From Gammaproteobacteria bacterium (lineage in GTDB: Bacteria; Pseudomonadota; Gammaproteobacteria; GRL18): a DNA stretch of 64,000 bases. Under the pieces are notes generated by a model. It worked only from the letters and a program-made list of their open reading frames with translations, searched no databases and was not told where the DNA came from. Of the stretch, positions 3,291 through 62,780 are shown piece after piece. The stretch covers positions 1 to 64,000 of the forward strand of contig JADGDG010000014.1 in NCBI GenBank assembly GCA_016744995.1, given 5' to 3'. How positions within the stretch are numbered: the stretch's first letter is position 1; each line of letters begins with the position of its first letter. The position numbers and the translations under genes were made by a program.

Positions 3291-5048
3291 ATGGTGAAAA
3301 CAAAGGGTCAAATACAAACCTATCGGATCAATTTTATTTATCTGATTCTAGTTGTGGTTTGTTGCGCGCTTATCTGGCGGGTTCTGGATTTACAGGTTGT
3401 TAATAATGAATTTTTAAAAGGGCAAGGAAATGCCCGTGTGCTGAGGCAGCTGGAAGTCACTGCTCACCGGGGAATGATAACAGATAGAAATGGTTATCCT
3501 CTGGCTATCAGTACACCGGTTTCATCAATTTGGATTAATCCAAAAGAGTTTGAAGCAGATAATAAAAAAATTTATCAGGTTGCAAAATTGCTTAAGCTGA
3601 ACAGCCAATATATAAAAAACAAGGTAAAAAAACGCGCCAATAAAGAATTTGTCTATATTAAGCGACGTATTAACCCTGCTCTGGCACAGCGAATTTTAAA
3701 GATGAATATTAAAGGTATTCATGTACAGAGAGAATATCGACGTTACTATCCGGATGGTGAAATTTTTGGCCATGTTCTGGGTTTTACTGATGTTGATGAT
3801 AATGGTCAGGAAGGAATGGAACTGGCTTATAACGATTGGTTAAGTGGTGATTCTGGTCGTAAGCGTGTGGTTAAAGATCGTCTGGGTCGTATTATTGCAA
3901 TTGAGGAGCAGATAAAAGCCCCTCAGCCTGGTAAAGATTTAAGCCTGAGTCTGGATCGTCGAATTCAGTATCTGGCATATAAAGAACTAAAAAAAACAGT
4001 ACAACAACATAAGGCAAAATCAGGGTCTATCGTGATATTAGATATTGAAACAGGTGAGGTAATAGCCATGGCGAGTCAGCCAGGGTTTAATCCCAACCGC
4101 TTACAAGATCGAAAATCAAGACTGTATCGCAACCGAGCGATAGCAGATCTGTTTGAGCCGGGTTCAACAATGAAGCCCATCTCTATTGCTGCGGCATTGA
4201 ATAGTGGTCGTTATGGTCCATCAACACAGATCAAAACAGGTGATGGCTGGTTTATGATTAATGGTAAGACCATTAAAGATACTCATGCCTATGGCACCAT
4301 TGATGTTTCCACTGTGATACAAAAATCAAGTAATGTAGGCACTTCAAAAATTGCCCTAAGTTTGCCTAAATCATTATTATGGGACACGTATTATAGTTTT
4401 GGTTTCGGTAATGATACTGGAAGTGGTTTCCCTGGTGAGTCTTCAGGACGTCTGGTACGTCCCCGACGTGTTTCAAAAATAGAGCAGGCTACACTTTCTT
4501 TTGGTTATGGCATGTCAGTGACGAATCTGCAATTAGCCAATGCCTATGGCATGATTGCCCGGCAGGGTAACAAGATACCGGTTACTTTTTTATCTCAGGC
4601 TGCTAATGATGAAATTGAGTTAACACAAGATTCAACTCTGGCCTCAGGACAGAGAGTAGCACTATCATCACGTTCCCTGAAACAAGTGAATAAGATGATG
4701 CAACGTGTTGTTAAAGTCGGTGGTACAGCGCCTAAGGCTGCAGTTAAAGGTTATAAGGTTGCCGGGAAGACAGGGACCGTAAAAAAAGCCTCCAGACATG
4801 GTGGTTACACCAAAAAGAAATACAGTGCAGTGTTTGCCGGTTATGCACCTGCAAGTGCGCCAAAGATGGCGATTGTTGTCATGATTGATGAACCTGCTAA
4901 TGGTGAATACTACGGCGGCCTGGTGGCAGCACCTCTTTTTTCTACTGTGATGTCAGGTGCTTTACGCTTACTTAATATTGACCCGGATGATATCAGTCAG
5001 CCTGATGTTGTGACACAAATAGAACAACATATCGGGAGGCAGGGATGA
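3291..5048 (+). CDS. ftsI: Peptidoglycan D,D-transpeptidase FtsI (PBP3)
   Basis: 585 residues. A single N-terminal membrane anchor (about 15-35) is followed by the pedestal domain (RGMITDRNGYPLA) and a C-terminal transpeptidase domain with the three penicillin-binding motifs: STMK (catalytic Ser near residue 292), SSN, and KTG in AGKTGTVKKA. It cross-links septal peptidoglycan together with FtsW. Its TGA overlaps the murE ATG (ATGA), so the two are probably translationally coupled. Confidence 0.97.
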   Translation: MVKTKGQIQTYRINFIYLILVVVCCALIWRVLDLQVVNNEFLKGQGNARVLRQLEVTAHRGMITDRNGYPLAISTPVSSIWINPKEFEADNKKIYQVAKLLKLNSQYIKNKVKKRANKEFVYIKRRINPALAQRILKMNIKGIHVQREYRRYYPDGEIFGHVLGFTDVDDNGQEGMELAYNDWLSGDSGRKRVVKDRLGRIIAIEEQIKAPQPGKDLSLSLDRRIQYLAYKELKKTVQQHKAKSGSIVILDIETGEVIAMASQPGFNPNRLQDRKSRLYRNRAIADLFEPGSTMKPISIAAALNSGRYGPSTQIKTGDGWFMINGKTIKDTHAYGTIDVSTVIQKSSNVGTSKIALSLPKSLLWDTYYSFGFGNDTGSGFPGESSGRLVRPRRVSKIEQATLSFGYGMSVTNLQLANAYGMIARQGNKIPVTFLSQAANDEIELTQDSTLASGQRVALSSRSLKQVNKMMQRVVKVGGTAPKAAVKGYKVAGKTGTVKKASRHGGYTKKKYSAVFAGYAPASAPKMAIVVMIDEPANGEYYGGLVAAPLFSTVMSGALRLLNIDPDDISQPDVVTQIEQHIGRQG

Positions 5049-6760
5049 AAAGTCAACTGCCCATAGCCAGAAGCCTCAACAGGCCTCTGGCGAAACCCAT
5101 AAAAAAGAAAGCTGAAAAGCACTATTCTCATAACCATCTACAGTCACTGTTAGATGGTTTTGTTGATTTTAGTGGGGTCGAAAATTGTGACCTTAATTTC
5201 AAAGGCTTATCGATTAATAGTAAGAAAGTACATGAAGAGTATCTGTTTTTAGCCTGTGCTAGCGTAGGGCATGGCTTACAAAAAGATTTACAGCATGGTA
5301 TTGCCTATGCGGGTGAAGCGATTAACCTTGGTGCCAGTTGCATTGCCTGGGAGCCGATGACAGAGCTTGAAGATATGCCGGAAAGTTGCTCTGTTGAGAG
5401 ACATGGAGAGATGTTTCATGTGCCCTTAATTCAAGTTGAAGCACTGCATGAAAAAGTGGGTGAAATTGCTGCACGGTTTTATCAGCACCCAAGTCATTTA
5501 CTCAATGTAATTGGTATTACCGGGACTAATGGCAAAACATCGATTGCACATTTTATTGCACAGTTAATTCATGCTCAGGATGTGACAGAAAAAAATGAAT
5601 CAAAAGGGGCAGCAAAAAAATGTGCCGTGATAGGTACTCTGGGTAATGGTTTTTATGGACAGCTTGAAGCTGGAACTCATACTACCCCGGATGCAGTCAC
5701 TGTGCAGGAACTCATTGCTGACTTTCGTGATAAGCAGGCTGAAACTCTGGTGATGGAAGTGTCCTCTCATGCTTTATCTCAGGGCCGGGTTAATGGGGTT
5801 GAGTTTGATTGTGCAATTTTCACGAATCTGACTCGGGATCATCTGGATTATCATGGTGATATGAAATCCTATGCAAATGAAAAACTGAAATTGTTTCAAT
5901 TTTCATCTCTTAAGCAAATTGTTTTGAATCAGGATGATTCATTTTCAAAAATAATTATTGAATCAATTAAACATGATTCATATAGCCAGAAATTATCGAT
6001 TATTCGCTATTCCAGAGAGGACAGGAATGCTGAATATTTTGCTGATTCTATCAGCCTGAGTTCTGAGGGTATTTCTTTTACCTTATATATAAATGATCAA
6101 GCTGCTGTTGAAATAAAAACATCAATAGTGGGTGATTTTAATATTGACAATATACTGGCGTCTATTGCCGCATTGCATTCTCAGGGGTATGACTTAGATG
6201 CCATTGTGAGCCGTGTAGGAAAATTAGCAATTGTTCCAGGACGAATGGAAAAGATAATGCTTCCCTCTTCAGAGAGTGGAGTATTACAGGATGATTTACC
6301 ACTGATTGTTGTTGATTATGCCCATACTCCCGATGCCATAGAGAAAGTGCTTGGTGCGTTAAGAGCACACACCCGGGGACAACTGATCTGTCTCTTTGGC
6401 TGTGGTGGTGATCGTGATAAGGGTAAACGTCCATTGATGGCAGAAATTGCTGAGCAATTGGCTGATCAGATTATTGTCACTTCGGATAATCCGAGAACTG
6501 AATCTCCAGATCAGATTATTGCAGATATTATGGATGGTTTTAAAAATTCAAAAAATGTAGTGATAGAAGTTGAACGAGAAAAAGCAATTTACTCAACATT
6601 GAGTTCAATTAATACAGGGGATGTTGTGCTCATTGCAGGCAAGGGGCATGAAGACTATCAGGAAATTAATGGTCAGCGTCTGCCTTTTAGTGATAAGGGC
6701 TGTGTACATCGTTTTTATAAAGAGCATTTAACAAAACGATCAGGAGAGGCTTGTAAATGA
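5045..6760 (+). CDS. murE: UDP-MurNAc-tripeptide synthetase MurE (meso-DAP type)
   Basis: 571 residues, longer than the usual ~495. It adds the third stem residue to UDP-MurNAc-L-Ala-D-Glu using ATP. The ATP loop GITGTNGKTS, the HTTPDAV substrate segment, and the DNPR motif that marks specificity for meso-diaminopimelate are all present. The extra length comes from a basic N-terminal extension of about 35 residues, a lysine-rich insert after the P-loop helix (around residues 178-195) and a longer hinge near the central/C-terminal domain border. ATGA overlaps join it to ftsI and murF. Confidence 0.96.
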   Translation: MKSQLPIARSLNRPLAKPIKKKAEKHYSHNHLQSLLDGFVDFSGVENCDLNFKGLSINSKKVHEEYLFLACASVGHGLQKDLQHGIAYAGEAINLGASCIAWEPMTELEDMPESCSVERHGEMFHVPLIQVEALHEKVGEIAARFYQHPSHLLNVIGITGTNGKTSIAHFIAQLIHAQDVTEKNESKGAAKKCAVIGTLGNGFYGQLEAGTHTTPDAVTVQELIADFRDKQAETLVMEVSSHALSQGRVNGVEFDCAIFTNLTRDHLDYHGDMKSYANEKLKLFQFSSLKQIVLNQDDSFSKIIIESIKHDSYSQKLSIIRYSREDRNAEYFADSISLSSEGISFTLYINDQAAVEIKTSIVGDFNIDNILASIAALHSQGYDLDAIVSRVGKLAIVPGRMEKIMLPSSESGVLQDDLPLIVVDYAHTPDAIEKVLGALRAHTRGQLICLFGCGGDRDKGKRPLMAEIAEQLADQIIVTSDNPRTESPDQIIADIMDGFKNSKNVVIEVEREKAIYSTLSSINTGDVVLIAGKGHEDYQEINGQRLPFSDKGCVHRFYKEHLTKRSGEACK

Positions 6761-9338: not shown

Positions 9339-10865
9339 ATGAACATAACAACACTTAACAAACAATTTGACTTCAGCATACCGACATTGATTGTCGGTAT
9401 GGGGGGTACTGGTTTGTCTTGTGCTCGCTATCTTAAACAGCGAGGTTGTTCTTATGCTTTTGCTGATAATCGTAAGGAATTATTAACACTGGGTGAAATA
9501 AAGGATCAATTTAGTCCTCTTGAAGTATTAACGGGTGATTTTAAATTTGAACAATTTATAAATTATAAACAGATTGTTGTCAGTCCCGGCATTTCAATTC
9601 GCTGTGAATTATTTACTTCACTGATTGAAAAGGGATGTTTTGTTCTGGGTGATATTGAGCTTTTTTCTCAGGTTGTTAATAAACCGGTTATCGCCATTAC
9701 GGGTTCAAATGGAAAAAGTACAGTAACAACACTGGTTGAGAAAATAACACAGGAATGCGGTGTTAAATCCATAGCAGGCGGTAATCTTGGTGTTCCGGCT
9801 TTAGAACTTTTGGAAACAAATAGTGACCTGTATATTCTGGAGTTATCAAGTTTCCAGTTAGAAACAACTTATAGTTTAAAAACACTTTCAGCTACGGTTT
9901 TAAATGTCAGCGAAGATCATATGGATCGATATGATGATCTGAGTGATTATCGAAGAGTTAAAGAAAGTATCTATAATAATACTGAAAATGCGGTTGTTAA
10001 TATTGATGAAAAAATAACTCTTCAAAGAGTTGAAAGTGCACTTGCAGGCAATGATGAAAAATATACCATAATTACATTTGGTGAAGAGCCTTCAGCGGAT
10101 AAAGAGCCTTCAGCGGATAAAGAGCCTTTAGCAGATCAAGAGCCTTCAGCGGGTAAGGATAAAGAACCTTCAGCAAAATATTATCTGCGTAACGACGATA
10201 CTTTAATGAGATGTAAAAATGAAATCATTCAAGCGAGTAAAATTAAACTAAAAGGTAGTTACAATTACATCAATATCCTTGCAGCACTGGCATTGCTTGA
10301 GCCATTAAAATTGAATATGCAAAAAATGCTTGCAGTAATAACAGAATATAGTGGTTTAGCTCATCGATGTGAATGGGTTGCTCAAGTTAATGGTATTGAG
10401 TTTTATAATGACTCAAAAGGAACCAATACTGGCGCAACAATTGCTGCAATTGATGGTTTTGAAACAGAAGAAGATAAACAACAGTTACTGAGAAAAGTTA
10501 TTTTAATCGCCGGTGGAATAGCAAAAGATGCTGACTTTACTGAAATGGGCACGGTTATAGAAAAAAAAATAAAAGCCACTGTTTTAATGGGTGTTGATTC
10601 GCAACAGATAAAGAGCAGTGCATTAAATGCAGGCGTGGAGAATAGCGTTCTCTATTCAGTTGATACAATGTCTGAGGCAGTTTCAAAGGCATATAAACTG
10701 GCAATAACAGGTGATACTATTTTATTTTCACCAGCCTGTGCCAGTTTTGATATGTACCAGAACTATATAAAACGTGGAGAAGATTTTAAAGAAAAAGTTT
10801 TAACATTGAGTTCTGAATTTAAAACTAAACTTGAAATGAATAGTGAACTCAAACATGTCAGCTGA
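9339..10865 (+). CDS. murD: UDP-MurNAc-L-alanine:D-glutamate ligase MurD
   Basis: 508 residues against about 440 normally. It adds D-glutamate to UDP-MurNAc-L-Ala. Motifs seen: GMGGTGLSCARYL at the N-terminus, the ATP loop AITGSNGKST, NVSEDHMDRY, the NDSKGTN catalytic segment and SPACASFDMYQNYIKRGEDF at the C-terminus. The excess includes a repeated acidic stretch of EPSADK units (residues about 250-280) from an 18-bp DNA tandem repeat, placed between the central-domain strands where a surface loop is expected. The frame stays open and the catalytic motifs are intact, so the enzyme should be active. Confidence 0.96.
   Translation: MNITTLNKQFDFSIPTLIVGMGGTGLSCARYLKQRGCSYAFADNRKELLTLGEIKDQFSPLEVLTGDFKFEQFINYKQIVVSPGISIRCELFTSLIEKGCFVLGDIELFSQVVNKPVIAITGSNGKSTVTTLVEKITQECGVKSIAGGNLGVPALELLETNSDLYILELSSFQLETTYSLKTLSATVLNVSEDHMDRYDDLSDYRRVKESIYNNTENAVVNIDEKITLQRVESALAGNDEKYTIITFGEEPSADKEPSADKEPLADQEPSAGKDKEPSAKYYLRNDDTLMRCKNEIIQASKIKLKGSYNYINILAALALLEPLKLNMQKMLAVITEYSGLAHRCEWVAQVNGIEFYNDSKGTNTGATIAAIDGFETEEDKQQLLRKVILIAGGIAKDADFTEMGTVIEKKIKATVLMGVDSQQIKSSALNAGVENSVLYSVDTMSEAVSKAYKLAITGDTILFSPACASFDMYQNYIKRGEDFKEKVLTLSSEFKTKLEMNSELKHVS
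10086..10178 (+). repeat. 18-bp coding tandem repeat inside murD
   Basis: Units begin at 10086, 10104, 10122 and 10140, with a diverged fifth after a 6-base spacer at 10164. The first two are identical (GAGCCTTCAGCGGATAAA) and encode EPSADK; later ones read EPLADQ, EPSAGK and EPSAK. The in-frame 18-bp period keeps murD open. Confidence 0.95.
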
Positions 10866-35309: not shown

Positions 35310-35762
35310 ATGATAAGCAAATACAACAATCATAAGGGTTTTACACTGATTGAATTAATGGTTGTTGTAGCAATCATTGGTATTTTAGCTGCTATCGCCA
35401 TTCCAACCTATCAGGATTTTATTGCCCGCTCACAAATTGCTCGTGTATATGGTGAAATATCCGCGTTTAAAGCCGGGATTGAAGATCAATTATCACAAGG
35501 AAATATGCCTACAGGACCTGCTGGTCTTATTACTATTGGCTATGTTAACCCTTCGAAAATACAGGCAGCAGATCCTGTATTGACTTTTGTTGCTTCAGGC
35601 TCAGGGACATTAGTGGCTACATTGGGTGGAGATGCGATAAATATAATCTTAAACACAACGATTACACTATCGAGAACTGCTACGGGAGTTTGGAGCTGTG
35701 CAACGGATGGCGGTGGTGCGCCTGGGTATAAACCGTCACATGCCCCGGTTAGCTGTCCATAA
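35310..35762 (+). CDS. pilA: Type IV major pilin PilA (copy 1)
   Basis: 150 residues. A short leader ending in glycine ([10 protein letters not shown]) precedes [20 protein letters not shown], with the cleavage-site Phe and Glu at position +5. The globular part has a C-terminal cysteine pair (WSCATDGG ... SCP) forming the D-loop. GGGGAG stands at a good distance before the ATG. It is paired with a second pilin 450 bp downstream that shares the N-terminal half and the WSC motif but differs elsewhere, so one may be the main subunit and the other a variant. Confidence 0.95.
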
Positions 35763-35870
35763 ATCGATAAATATGGACTTAAAGCTAAGAGCTTTCCTTA
35801 ATATTTATAGGCTCTGTTTTGAGTTAACCTCCTGTTAACCCTCTTTGTTTCATGTCTGTTGGTCTCATAT

Positions 35871-35890
35871 GGATAGCTACCCTGCTATCC
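35871..35890 (+). terminator. Probable terminator or attenuator after pilA1
   Basis: GGATAGC and GCTATCC form a perfect 7-bp stem with a 6-nt loop. No strong T-run follows. A weaker GTTAAC/GTTAAC hairpin lies just upstream (about 35823-35839). Confidence 0.5.
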
Positions 35891-35965
35891 ACTCGTTTAT
35901 TCTAAATAGAAGATTTTTTTTCTTGTGAATGCGATCAAGATCGGATTAATAAATTGTGACTGTAT

Positions 35966-36005
35966 AAGTGACAATTTGCATAAATTGTTTTGTCACTTAG
36001 TGACA
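35966..36005 (+). promoter_or_regulatory. Candidate PilR enhancer sites upstream of pilA2
   Basis: AAGTGACAA (35966-35974) is repeated inverted as TTGTCACTT (35990-35998), and TGTCACT-T-AGTGACA (35991-36005) is a second palindrome sharing that half. A further TGTGAC begins at 35955. The cluster stands about 100-150 bp before the -24 element, the normal distance for an RpoN activator. P. aeruginosa PilR is known to bind repeated C/GTGTC tracts; assigning these to PilR is inference. Confidence 0.6.
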
Positions 36006-36100
36006 TAATTGTTAATTGTTAGCAGAAAATAATCAAAATCACTATTAACTCTCTTTTAAGTCAGGAACTAATTGATTGATATAAAAGCAATTCAATTTAT

Positions 36101-36117
36101 TGGCACAAAGAATGCTT
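36101..36117 (+). promoter_or_regulatory. Sigma-54 promoter of pilA2
   Basis: TGGCAC (36101-36106) and TGCTTT (36113-36118) place GG at 36102-36103 and GC at 36114-36115 with exactly ten bases between. This is close to the full RpoN consensus, about 100 bp before the start codon. Confidence 0.88.
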
Positions 36118-36214
36118 TAACTATTGTAAGACATAGGGCCGTGACAGAATATTCTACATAGCTCATTTGCTCACAATGCTAAATTTTAGTATTAATTATT
36201 TAAAGGAACTCATT

Positions 36215-36646
36215 ATGATGAAAAAATCAAACAAAAACCAACAAGGTTTTACATTAATTGAATTAATGGTTGTTGTTGCAATTATTGGTATTTTAGCAGC
36301 GATTGCTATTCCAGCGTATCAGGACTATATCGCTCGTTCACAATATTCTCGTGTATTTGGTGAAATATCTGCACTTAAAACAGGAGCCGAAGATCAACTT
36401 GCACAAGGTAATGCTGTAGCTACTGCTGCACAGATTGGTCATGTTAATGATTCAGATATTCAAGCCGCTGCTCCTACTGCGGTTATAGCACTTGCTGGGG
36501 CTGGAACCATTATTGGAACTATGGGTGGAAACGCTTCTGGTGCAATTGCAGGTCATACTATAACACTTACCAGAACAGCTGCTGGTGCGTGGAGTTGTAC
36601 AAGTAATGCTACTAACCAGGCTTTACTTCCATCTGGTTGTCAATAA
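36215..36646 (+). CDS. pilA: Type IV major pilin PilA (copy 2)
   Basis: 143 residues from ATG 36215, which has AAGGA nine bases before it; the frame is open from 36167 but that start has no such site. The leader [11 protein letters not shown] is followed by [20 protein letters not shown] with Glu at +5. The C-terminal cysteines (WSCTSN ... LPSGCQ) close the D-loop. The strong hairpin terminator just downstream and the better sigma-54 promoter suggest this is the main, highly expressed pilin. Confidence 0.96.
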
Positions 36647-60164: not shown

Positions 60165-61163
60165 ATGTTAGAAAATGAACGTATTATTTCAGGAGTTGAA
60201 GTAACGAATGAAGATCAATTAGATCGTTCTATCCGCCCTAAAACCCTGAAGGATTATGTCGGACAGCCTTCAGTGTGTGAGCAGATGGATATCTTTATTC
60301 CAGCAGCCAGAAACCGCAATGAAGCATTGGATCATGTGCTTATTTTTGGCCCCCCTGGCCTTGGGAAAACCACACTATCACATATTATTGCTAACGAAAT
60401 GGGCGTTAATTTGCGTCAGACATCAGGACCAGTACTCGAACGTCCTGGAGATCTCGCTGCTTTGCTGACCAATCTGGAAGAAGGTGACGTATTATTTATC
60501 GATGAAATTCACCGCTTGAGTGCCGTGGTTGAAGAAGTTTTGTACCCTGCAATGGAAGATAATCAGCTGGATATTATGATTGGTGAAGGACCGGCTGCTC
60601 GCTCAATTAAGCTGGACTTACCGCCTTTTACCCTGATTGGTGCCACCACAAGGGCAGGTTTATTGACTTCACCTCTACGTGATCGTTTTGGCATTGTGCA
60701 GAGACTGGAATTTTACTCGATTGCTGATTTGACTCATATTGTCAGCCGTTCGGCAAAGATTATGGCTATACAGATTGACCCGCATGGTGCCAGTGAAATT
60801 GCTAAGCGCTCCAGAGGTACACCCCGTATTGCCAATCGTCTGTTGAGACGTGTCCGGGATTATGCAGAAATTAAAGGCGATGGACTGGTCAATGTTGATA
60901 TTGCTGATCGTGCTTTGAATATGCTGGAAGTTGATCCCATGGGCTTTGATATGATGGATCGAAAACTGATGTTGAGCATTATTGAAAAATTTGATGGCGG
61001 CCCTGTAGGTGTTGATAATCTGGCAGCAGCGATCAGTGAAGAAAAGGGAACTATAGAAGATGTTCTGGAACCTTTTTTAATTCAGCAGGGATACATCATG
61101 CGTACTCCAAGGGGGCGGGTGGCAACCGATATGGCTTATTTACACTTTGGTCTGCAGAGGTAG
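60165..61163 (+). CDS. ruvB: Holliday junction helicase RuvB
   Basis: 332 residues. Walker A is [14 protein letters not shown], Walker B is [10 protein letters not shown], sensor and arginine-finger region [16 protein letters not shown], and a winged-helix C-terminus ([15 protein letters not shown]). It is the hexameric motor of branch migration with RuvA. The usual next gene, ybgC, is separated by 1.2 kb of repeats. Confidence 0.98.
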
Positions 61164-61425
61164 TTCACAGCGTTGATTATCCGGAGCCAAGAGGCATGAA
61201 ATACTTATATTAAAAGACAATATGCATCCAGTAAAAAATATTCTTTCTTTAAAGGTCTTAAGAAGAATTCTTTGTTTAATTATTACTGAATTTTAGTTAT
61301 TGCTCAAGAATGAAGTTTTCACCTTATATTTCACTTTTGGATAACACGCAATTACTAGAAATAAACAGTTTATGGATGAAATTAATCCAAATTTACCGGA
61401 TTATTTTTATAATGAATAGCAACAA
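61164..61425. other. Gene-free DNA between ruvB and the palindromic element
   Basis: AT-rich, no recognisable gene. A 41-residue frame from about 61310 has no support. Confidence 0.4.
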
Positions 61426-61507
61426 AACGACCTAAGCAGTAATTTGCTGATTGTTTGGAAATCAAGAGAAAAAGAAGTGGCGGTGTTCGAATAAGTGTGT
61501 ATAAAAC

Positions 61508-61643
61508 GACTGCAAGGGCAGCTAATGCAACAACCTGGGGACGCTGCAGGCTTTTAGTTATCAAAGGTCATCCATGTAACGCTTGCTGTCGCCATCCATG
61601 GATCCAAACACCCCAGTTTGTTGCATTAGCTGCCCTCACAGTC
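61508..61643. repeat. Variable-arm hairpin, left copy
   Basis: An 18-bp perfect arm (61516-61533 with 61618-61635) continues outward to GACTG/CAGTC (61508-61512, 61639-61643) after a 3-nt bulge and inward to CTGGGG/CCCCAG (61535-61540, 61611-61616). The loop carries the 30-nt core at 61572-61601 plus a 16-nt insert absent in the right copy. Confidence 0.85.
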
Positions 61644-61847
61644 TCTTAAGGCATTTATTCTCTCTGGGAGTGTCCGAAATCAAAAGCAAAGAAAAAGCCA
61701 GAGCAATAGCTAACCCCTCAATCCCCCTTTGAAAAAGGGGGAAGTAACAGCACAATAGCTCAAGTAAATGGGCTCCTATGCTTTTGATTTTTCTTTGCTT
61801 TTGGACAACACCAGTGAGGACAACTGAGGTAGAAGAGTGTGCACGAT

Positions 61848-61941
61848 ACTGGTCCGTCTAACTGGGGTGTTTGGAGCCATGGATGGCGACAGCAAGCGTT
61901 ACATGGACGTACCTGAAGCGTCCCCAGTTAGACGGACCAGT
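61848..61941. repeat. Variable-arm hairpin, right copy
   Basis: A perfect 20-bp stem (61848-61867 with 61922-61941), extended further outward with one mismatch. The loop contains the same 30-nt core (61877-61906) as the left copy, but in inverse orientation. Its outer arm sequence shares nothing with the left arm, apart from the CTGGGG next to the core. Confidence 0.85.
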
Positions 61942-62080
61942 GTCGGGTGCAATCGACAGGCTCAGCATTTTGTCCGAACGCCCCCCTTCTTTTTCTCTTG
62001 ATTTTCAAATTACAGCTATGGTCGTTAAGCAGCATAAGTATGAAAAAATTTAAAGAACCATTTATATTATTAGAAAATAG

Positions 62081-62360: not shown

Positions 62361-62780
62361 TTGAATAATCAAGAGTTTTTGTGGCCTGTTAGAGTCTACT
62401 ATGAAGACACCGATAGCGGCGGAGTGGTTTATCATTCCAACTATTTAAATTTTATGGAACGAGCCAGAACCGAGTGGCTGAGATCAATGAATCTGGAACA
62501 GGATGATATTGTCAAAGAGTATGGTATTTTATTTGTTGTTCATTCTCTATCCATCAGCTATATAAAACCGGCCCTGTTTAATGAGGCTCTACTAGTCAAA
62601 AGCAAAATTCAGAAATTAAGCCGTGCCAGTCTCATTTTTGAGCAATTGATTGTCAGACAAGATGGTGAAGCTAGTGAAGAAATTTTAACTCAGGCTTCGG
62701 TAAAAATTGTCAGTTTGGGAGTAGAGCCAAAAAGACCGGTGCCTTTGCCAAAAGCAATTTATGAACAATTTTCTAATTAA
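62361..62780 (+). CDS. ybgC: Tol-Pal-associated acyl-CoA thioesterase YbgC
   Basis: 139 residues. Hot-dog fold with VYYEDTDSGGVVYHSNYLNF, carrying the catalytic Asp, and ERARTEWLR. The start is TTG 62361, because the codon before it is a stop; the conserved N-terminus fits. YbgC hydrolyses acyl-CoA thioesters and opens the tol operon. An ATG-ATT-GAA-TAA mini-frame overlaps the TTG, as also at 28680. Confidence 0.93.
   Translation: MNNQEFLWPVRVYYEDTDSGGVVYHSNYLNFMERARTEWLRSMNLEQDDIVKEYGILFVVHSLSISYIKPALFNEALLVKSKIQKLSRASLIFEQLIVRQDGEASEEILTQASVKIVSLGVEPKRPVPLPKAIYEQFSN

Follow-up and report, generated by a model that had tools for sequence, protein, structure and literature searches.

Two back-to-back units between ruvB and a ybgC-like gene

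The window analyzed here, a stretch of 64,000 nucleotides from a gammaproteobacterial genome, contains a repeated element in the gap between two genes that, by recognition of their proteins, we take to be ruvB (60165-61163) and a ybgC-like gene (62361-62780). Repeat coverage against the other copies in the genome and an alignment of the long copies place the whole element at about 61403-62032. Its outer ends, at 61424-61444 (plus strand) and 62008-62030 (minus strand), form an imperfect inverted repeat that the long copies have in common. Between these ends lie two units, a left one on the minus strand (61500-61651) with arms of type A and a right one on the plus strand (61827-61962) with arms of type B. 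Since the left unit belongs to the minus strand, the RNA strands of both units diverge from the middle. An earlier note on the window had described two facing hairpin units over about 600 bp; both units are real and their arms are paired, but the repeated element is wider than proposed.

In both units, the arms form one long stalk enclosing a head of two hairpins. The two sides of the left stalk (61508-61540 and 61611-61643, 33 nt each) are 91% complementary, and those of the right stalk (5' side 61824-61867 and 3' side 61922-61965, 44 nt each) are 77% complementary; the perfect stretches of 18 bp and 20 bp described before lie inside these longer arms. The identity of a 30-nt core in both units, at 61572-61601 (minus) and 61877-61906 (plus), was also borne out (0.00 expected by chance). 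In the left unit, the core additionally has a 16-nt insertion at about 61553-61568 on the minus strand, which two other copies have as well. The outer arms, thought to be wholly different, do differ strongly between types A and B, the two arm types among the copies of this genome, yet they can be aligned as one stem and intermediates occur in relatives. The spacer between the units contains a CCCCCTTTGAAAAAGGGGG hairpin (61722-61747), which is present in the spacers of some other copies and missing from others.

Head loops and assignment to TwoAYGGAY

Within the 30-nt core there are two small hairpins whose loops have the form ANGGAN and lie at a distance of 24 nt. In the right unit, sequence and structure pairs define loop 1 (AUGGAU, 61879-61884, plus) on the stem GGAGCC/GGCGAC with a tandem G-A, and loop 2 (AUGGAC, 61903-61908, plus) on the stem UAC/GUA. 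The left unit has AUGGAU in both loops (loop 1 at 61594-61599, loop 2 at 61570-61575, minus), as seen from the sequence and the alignment. Two hairpins with ANGGAN hexaloops were found in 33 of 36 units of this genome and 38 of 43 units of relatives, compared with 1 of 3950 shuffles. The loops are near-invariant, their closing pair is almost always C-G, and the spacing from GGA to GGA is 23-28 nt across units. There are two main head types, one with a tandem G-A (GGAGCC-AUGGAY-GGCGAC) and one that is all-paired (AGAAAAC-AUGGAC-GUUUUCU). The tandem G-A is present in both window units and altogether in 22 of 36 genome copies, the remaining copies having A-U pairs at this place.

These features are those of the already known RNA family TwoAYGGAY (RF01731), which is labelled cis-regulatory in Rfam, has gammaproteobacterial hosts like the units described here, and for which a tandem G-A in one head stem has been noted (PMC4333381). 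Both window units align to RF01731 over the full model, with 30.6 bits (right, E 0.013) and 29.6 bits (left, E 0.022), and thus stay below the gathering cut-off of 43 bits, which is a database threshold and not a biological feature. A covariance model (R1) that we built from 36 copies of this genome gives 152.5 bits for the right and 110.7 bits for the left unit. Even with E values of up to 10 allowed, the RF01731 search of the genome found 24 copies, of which a single one passes the cut-off (50.5 bits), and a run with fast filters at the gathering threshold gave no match; the present Rfam cut-off therefore overlooks most copies in this genome (1 of 49 above it). Among relatives of the same genus, four units are above the cut-off; for homologous units in L090 and L109, the scores range from 43.1 to 53.2. 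No other Rfam family matched the units, and csrB of E. coli, used as a control, belongs to the same Rfam clan (CL00106) as TwoAYGGAY.

The two AYGGAY-loop hairpins, the tandem G-A, the outer stem around both hairpins and the homology to copies scoring above the cut-off make divergent TwoAYGGAY members the best classification of the units. They differ from the family as described in their number, with between tens and about 100 dispersed copies in a genome, in occurring as back-to-back pairs and in scoring mostly below the Rfam cut-off, and further in the all-paired head variant, the hypervariable stalk and the exchanged heads. The literature searched contained no account of this repeat, and we did not find the copy number, the back-to-back pairs or an evolution by stalk drift and head exchange described there.

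It has been reported that a CsrA dimer can bridge sites 10-63 nt apart and that ligands of RsmE carry an ANGGAN loop (PMC7652899). The units have GGA in hairpin loops that match this CsrA/RsmE consensus, and their two sites lie within the bridging range. For TwoAYGGAY, CsrA binding was proposed earlier on motif grounds only (PMC4333381), and from the same kind of features we infer that the units described here might bind CsrA, for which the genome has one gene. We consider it probable that each unit specifies a TwoAYGGAY-type structured RNA, with a CsrA-type two-loop head on a drifting paired stalk, predicted to act as a decoy or as a CsrA-responsive element. The two GGA loops of a head would together be occupied by a single CsrA dimer, and a unit that is transcribed could either sequester CsrA as a small decoy or make a neighbouring transcript responsive to CsrA. 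Points against this reading are the cis-regulatory label of RF01731, the scores of the window's units below the cut-off, and that no promoter or terminator of a free RNA stood out for the units. The stalk sequence might be free to change because only its pairing matters.

Hairpin loops with a GGA that fits the CsrA consensus are also found in CsrB, RsmY and RsmZ, sRNAs that sequester CsrA. However, they have many sites at one or a few loci, whereas the units have two sites each at many dispersed loci, and a role that is predicted. If this were confirmed, several genera of marine bacteria would have a plentiful supply of CsrA-type sites in a little-studied RNA motif, and the titration of CsrA could vary with how many copies of a repeat are present.

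Selection on the RNA strand and the origin of differing arms

A search for further copies with paired but differing arms, as suggested by the earlier note, was successful: the genome contains 49 units, arranged as 11 adjacent pairs like that of the window and 27 separate units, and more are found in relatives. The R1 model matches 20 of 56 relatives, namely 13 of 15 other members of the genus, all six of another genus of the same family and one more distant genome; the matched relatives are gammaproteobacterial MAGs. By a scan of named genomes with the core pattern, units were also found in Shewanella (local arrays), Marinobacter, Reinekea, Glaciecola and Stenotrophomonas, with 97 units in Marinobacter sp. 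EhC06 and 84 in M. maroccanus. The pattern occurs in one clostridial MAG as well, but the covariance model did not confirm this case. In one array, that of Shewanella inventionis L139 (about 3600-6300), seven TwoAYGGAY-like units follow one another on a single strand at distances of 366-543 nt; their arms are similar and their stalks weaker.

Among the copies of this genome, changes on both sides were found at 18 of 46 pairs, and the covariation score is 0.307 compared with 0.130 in shuffles, although part of this score does no more than distinguish the two arm types. In the units of relatives, 97.2% of the stalk cells are paired, and nearly every stalk pair occurs in all four Watson-Crick types; as a structure model served to find and align these units, the result is biased towards pairing. 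Units found by the core pattern alone have a median of -51 kcal/mol with their own arms and of -28 kcal/mol with swapped arms. Likewise without the structure model, ungapped stems of 18/24 or better are formed by 212 of 282 units, compared with 14 of 561 swaps of arms. Against this stands that the stalks of many copies in Shewanella are weak; in the comparison of stems, only 62 of the 130 units found by pattern came up to 18/24.

The pairing might also be kept at the level of DNA, either by template switching during replication or as a cruciform or single-strand hairpin used by a transposase, with no RNA role. We regard this as quite improbable, even though the genome contains a gene resembling REP-type tyrosine transposases together with many fragments, and the inverted pairs resemble REPINs, where compensatory changes have been reported (PMC3116915). 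The covarying stems carry near-invariant ANGGAN loops, which does not fit this explanation. The core strand of the units, moreover, folds more stably than its complement; the folding z-scores are -6.8 for the right unit (plus strand) and -9.2 for the left unit (minus strand), and 0 of 200 shuffles were as stable. In the model-free stems, G-U was counted 152 times on the core strand and A-C 24 times. A DNA cruciform or a correction by template switching should give G-U and A-C equally, and this excess therefore marks out the core strand as the one that folds as RNA. Selection thus acts on an RNA fold of one strand. Of the two possibilities that the earlier note had left side by side, selection on the structure is the one that agrees with the many copies with paired but different arms, the compensated changes in orthologs and the G-U excess.

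The other possibility was a mobile core that enters the loops of pre-existing, unrelated palindromes. It is favored by the Marinobacter genomes, within which every sampled 16-nt arm segment is distinct while head types recur. However, intermediates connect the arms across the genus, and orthologous arms diverge by paired substitutions. The only comparison of a filled with an empty site with close flanks (L304/L395) did not reveal a matching palindrome at the empty site, and a headless precursor of this kind had been the expectation. At the ruvB-ybgC gap itself, which is readable in seven relatives, none has the element. The gap of the same-genus genome G013 (L234) contains a long palindrome (GTAGGATGTGGTGAGGCACGAACCGCATC...), which by eye looks like a GTAG-tagged REP, and which is unrelated in sequence to the arms in the window. 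On the ortholog and strand-bias evidence we reject loop insertion, which is in our view extremely improbable as an explanation of the units.

What remains of the mobile core is the reverse case, in which the head is exchanged inside fixed arms. The alignment with the closest relative, G012, yielded three orthologous units in conserved flanks. Two of them (L314/L300, L311/L330) have kept their arms and flanks, but over about 50 nt the head is replaced by the other head type, while in the third (L313/L340) the head is unchanged. L311/L330 additionally shows one compensated arm pair, and G012 is without about 123 nt of the B unit at this locus. The 16-nt head insertion is found in L001 and L002, which have A arms, and in L019, which has B arms; this likewise suggests that heads move between arms. 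Gene conversion, using the conserved blocks GGGGTGT and AGCGTCCCC, could explain the replacement of heads. Homogenization of heads inside pairs was not significant in this genome or in Marinobacter (p 0.42, 0.62, 0.25) and was marginal in relatives of the same family (0.03).

The paired substitutions in orthologous copies demonstrate that the arms drift with compensation. The majority of pairs is unchanged between Marinobacter orthologs, but L420/L455 has six double compensated changes, none broken, and a different head stem. Some orthologous stalks also show unpaired one-sided changes; the total of broken pairs is inflated by the misaligned Marinobacter copies L418/L445. The pattern of a same core with different arms consequently has two sources, namely the paired drift of the stalk and heads that are common to copies. 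With one fold, hundreds of stalk sequences and exchanged heads, the family is a natural experiment in RNA evolution.

Arrangement of the units and relation to other repeats

Consecutive units in this genome alternate perfectly in strand (-+ 16, +- 10, ++ 0, -- 0), and neighbours less than 500 nt apart are always -+ in three genomes. It is conceivable that the units are outward-facing ends of mobile segments, where a minus and a plus unit bound a cargo and the close pair is the form without cargo. The stretch C35:903413(-)/920131(+) is consistent with this idea, as its outer flanks are colinear with G012 and about 17 kb stand in place of 4.6 kb. On the other hand, the alternation breaks down for distant units in Marinobacter, and G013 has 25 singles, no pairs and no alternating order. 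In some of the inner flanks, the genes seem to be ordinary chromosomal ones, and the segments share no common recombinase and contain no attC arrays. We therefore hold this explanation to be decidedly improbable. Integron cassettes as cargo were rejected, since a scan of 22 inner flanks for RYYYAAC...GTTRRRY gave almost no match. An autonomous element with the same outer end was not found either, because the matches adjoin units, apart from a few weak ones.

A wider variant of the decoy reading combines several of these aspects. It describes a self-spreading repeat with a CsrA-decoy payload, in which tens to about a hundred dispersed two-site RNAs would jointly buffer CsrA, swappable heads would sit on stalks free to evolve, and outward copies would delimit mobile segments; we think that this is rather unlikely as a whole. 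In the narrower and preferred reading as CsrA-type RNAs on drifting stalks, the family would spread as a non-autonomous repeat. Besides the pair of the window, one pair of this genome has an empty counterpart site in G012, and neither the filled and empty sites nor the long copies showed a target duplication clear by eye.

As short intergenic repeats that often form inverted doublets and show compensatory hairpin changes, REPINs (PMC3116915), which are mobilized by RAYT, resemble the units, and a RAYT-like gene is present in this genome. The units differ from them by the evidence for selection on the RNA strand, and with about 136 nt and an internal two-hairpin head they are not palindromes of 20-40 nt; an assignment to REPs fails on this size. 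ERIC, Correia/NEMIS and similar MITEs are, like the units, non-coding intergenic long hairpins that are presumed to be non-autonomous (PMC2229807), but the units have no detected target duplication, a stalk sequence not conserved between copies and loops of a protein-binding type.

Among the 19 separate units for which both neighbours were called (simple ORF calling), 17 have the 3' side of the RNA facing the 3' end of the next gene. By the same simple calling, 11 of these 19 lie between convergent genes, compared with 0 of 11 close pairs.

Stretches of the genome bounded by a minus and a plus unit are C35:903413-920131, C35:127096-132390, C17:184098-186678, C14:45439-53258 and C7:47913-69720. 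Besides many small genes and assorted transposases, those that were read contain a HigB-type toxin and a subtilase. Several stretches of this kind are absent from G012 or different there. The RAYT-like protein has 339 aa (C35:908915-909931; L317:13416-14435) and scores below the NCBIfam cut-off; its gene has 21 further matches in the genome, mostly fragments. At L318:653-4708 and L314:1008-4727 (C15, C54), repeated similar ORFs (MGGVTAQLS..., M..GLVQLGSSQIDQWLPGQSL...) lie beside small genes and resemble, by eye, CdiA-type toxin/immunity clusters. Elsewhere in the window, there are an 18-nt tandem repeat (AAGAGCCTTCAGCGGATA) at 10066-10155 and a pair of 195-nt direct repeats, 908 nt apart, at 35310-36412.
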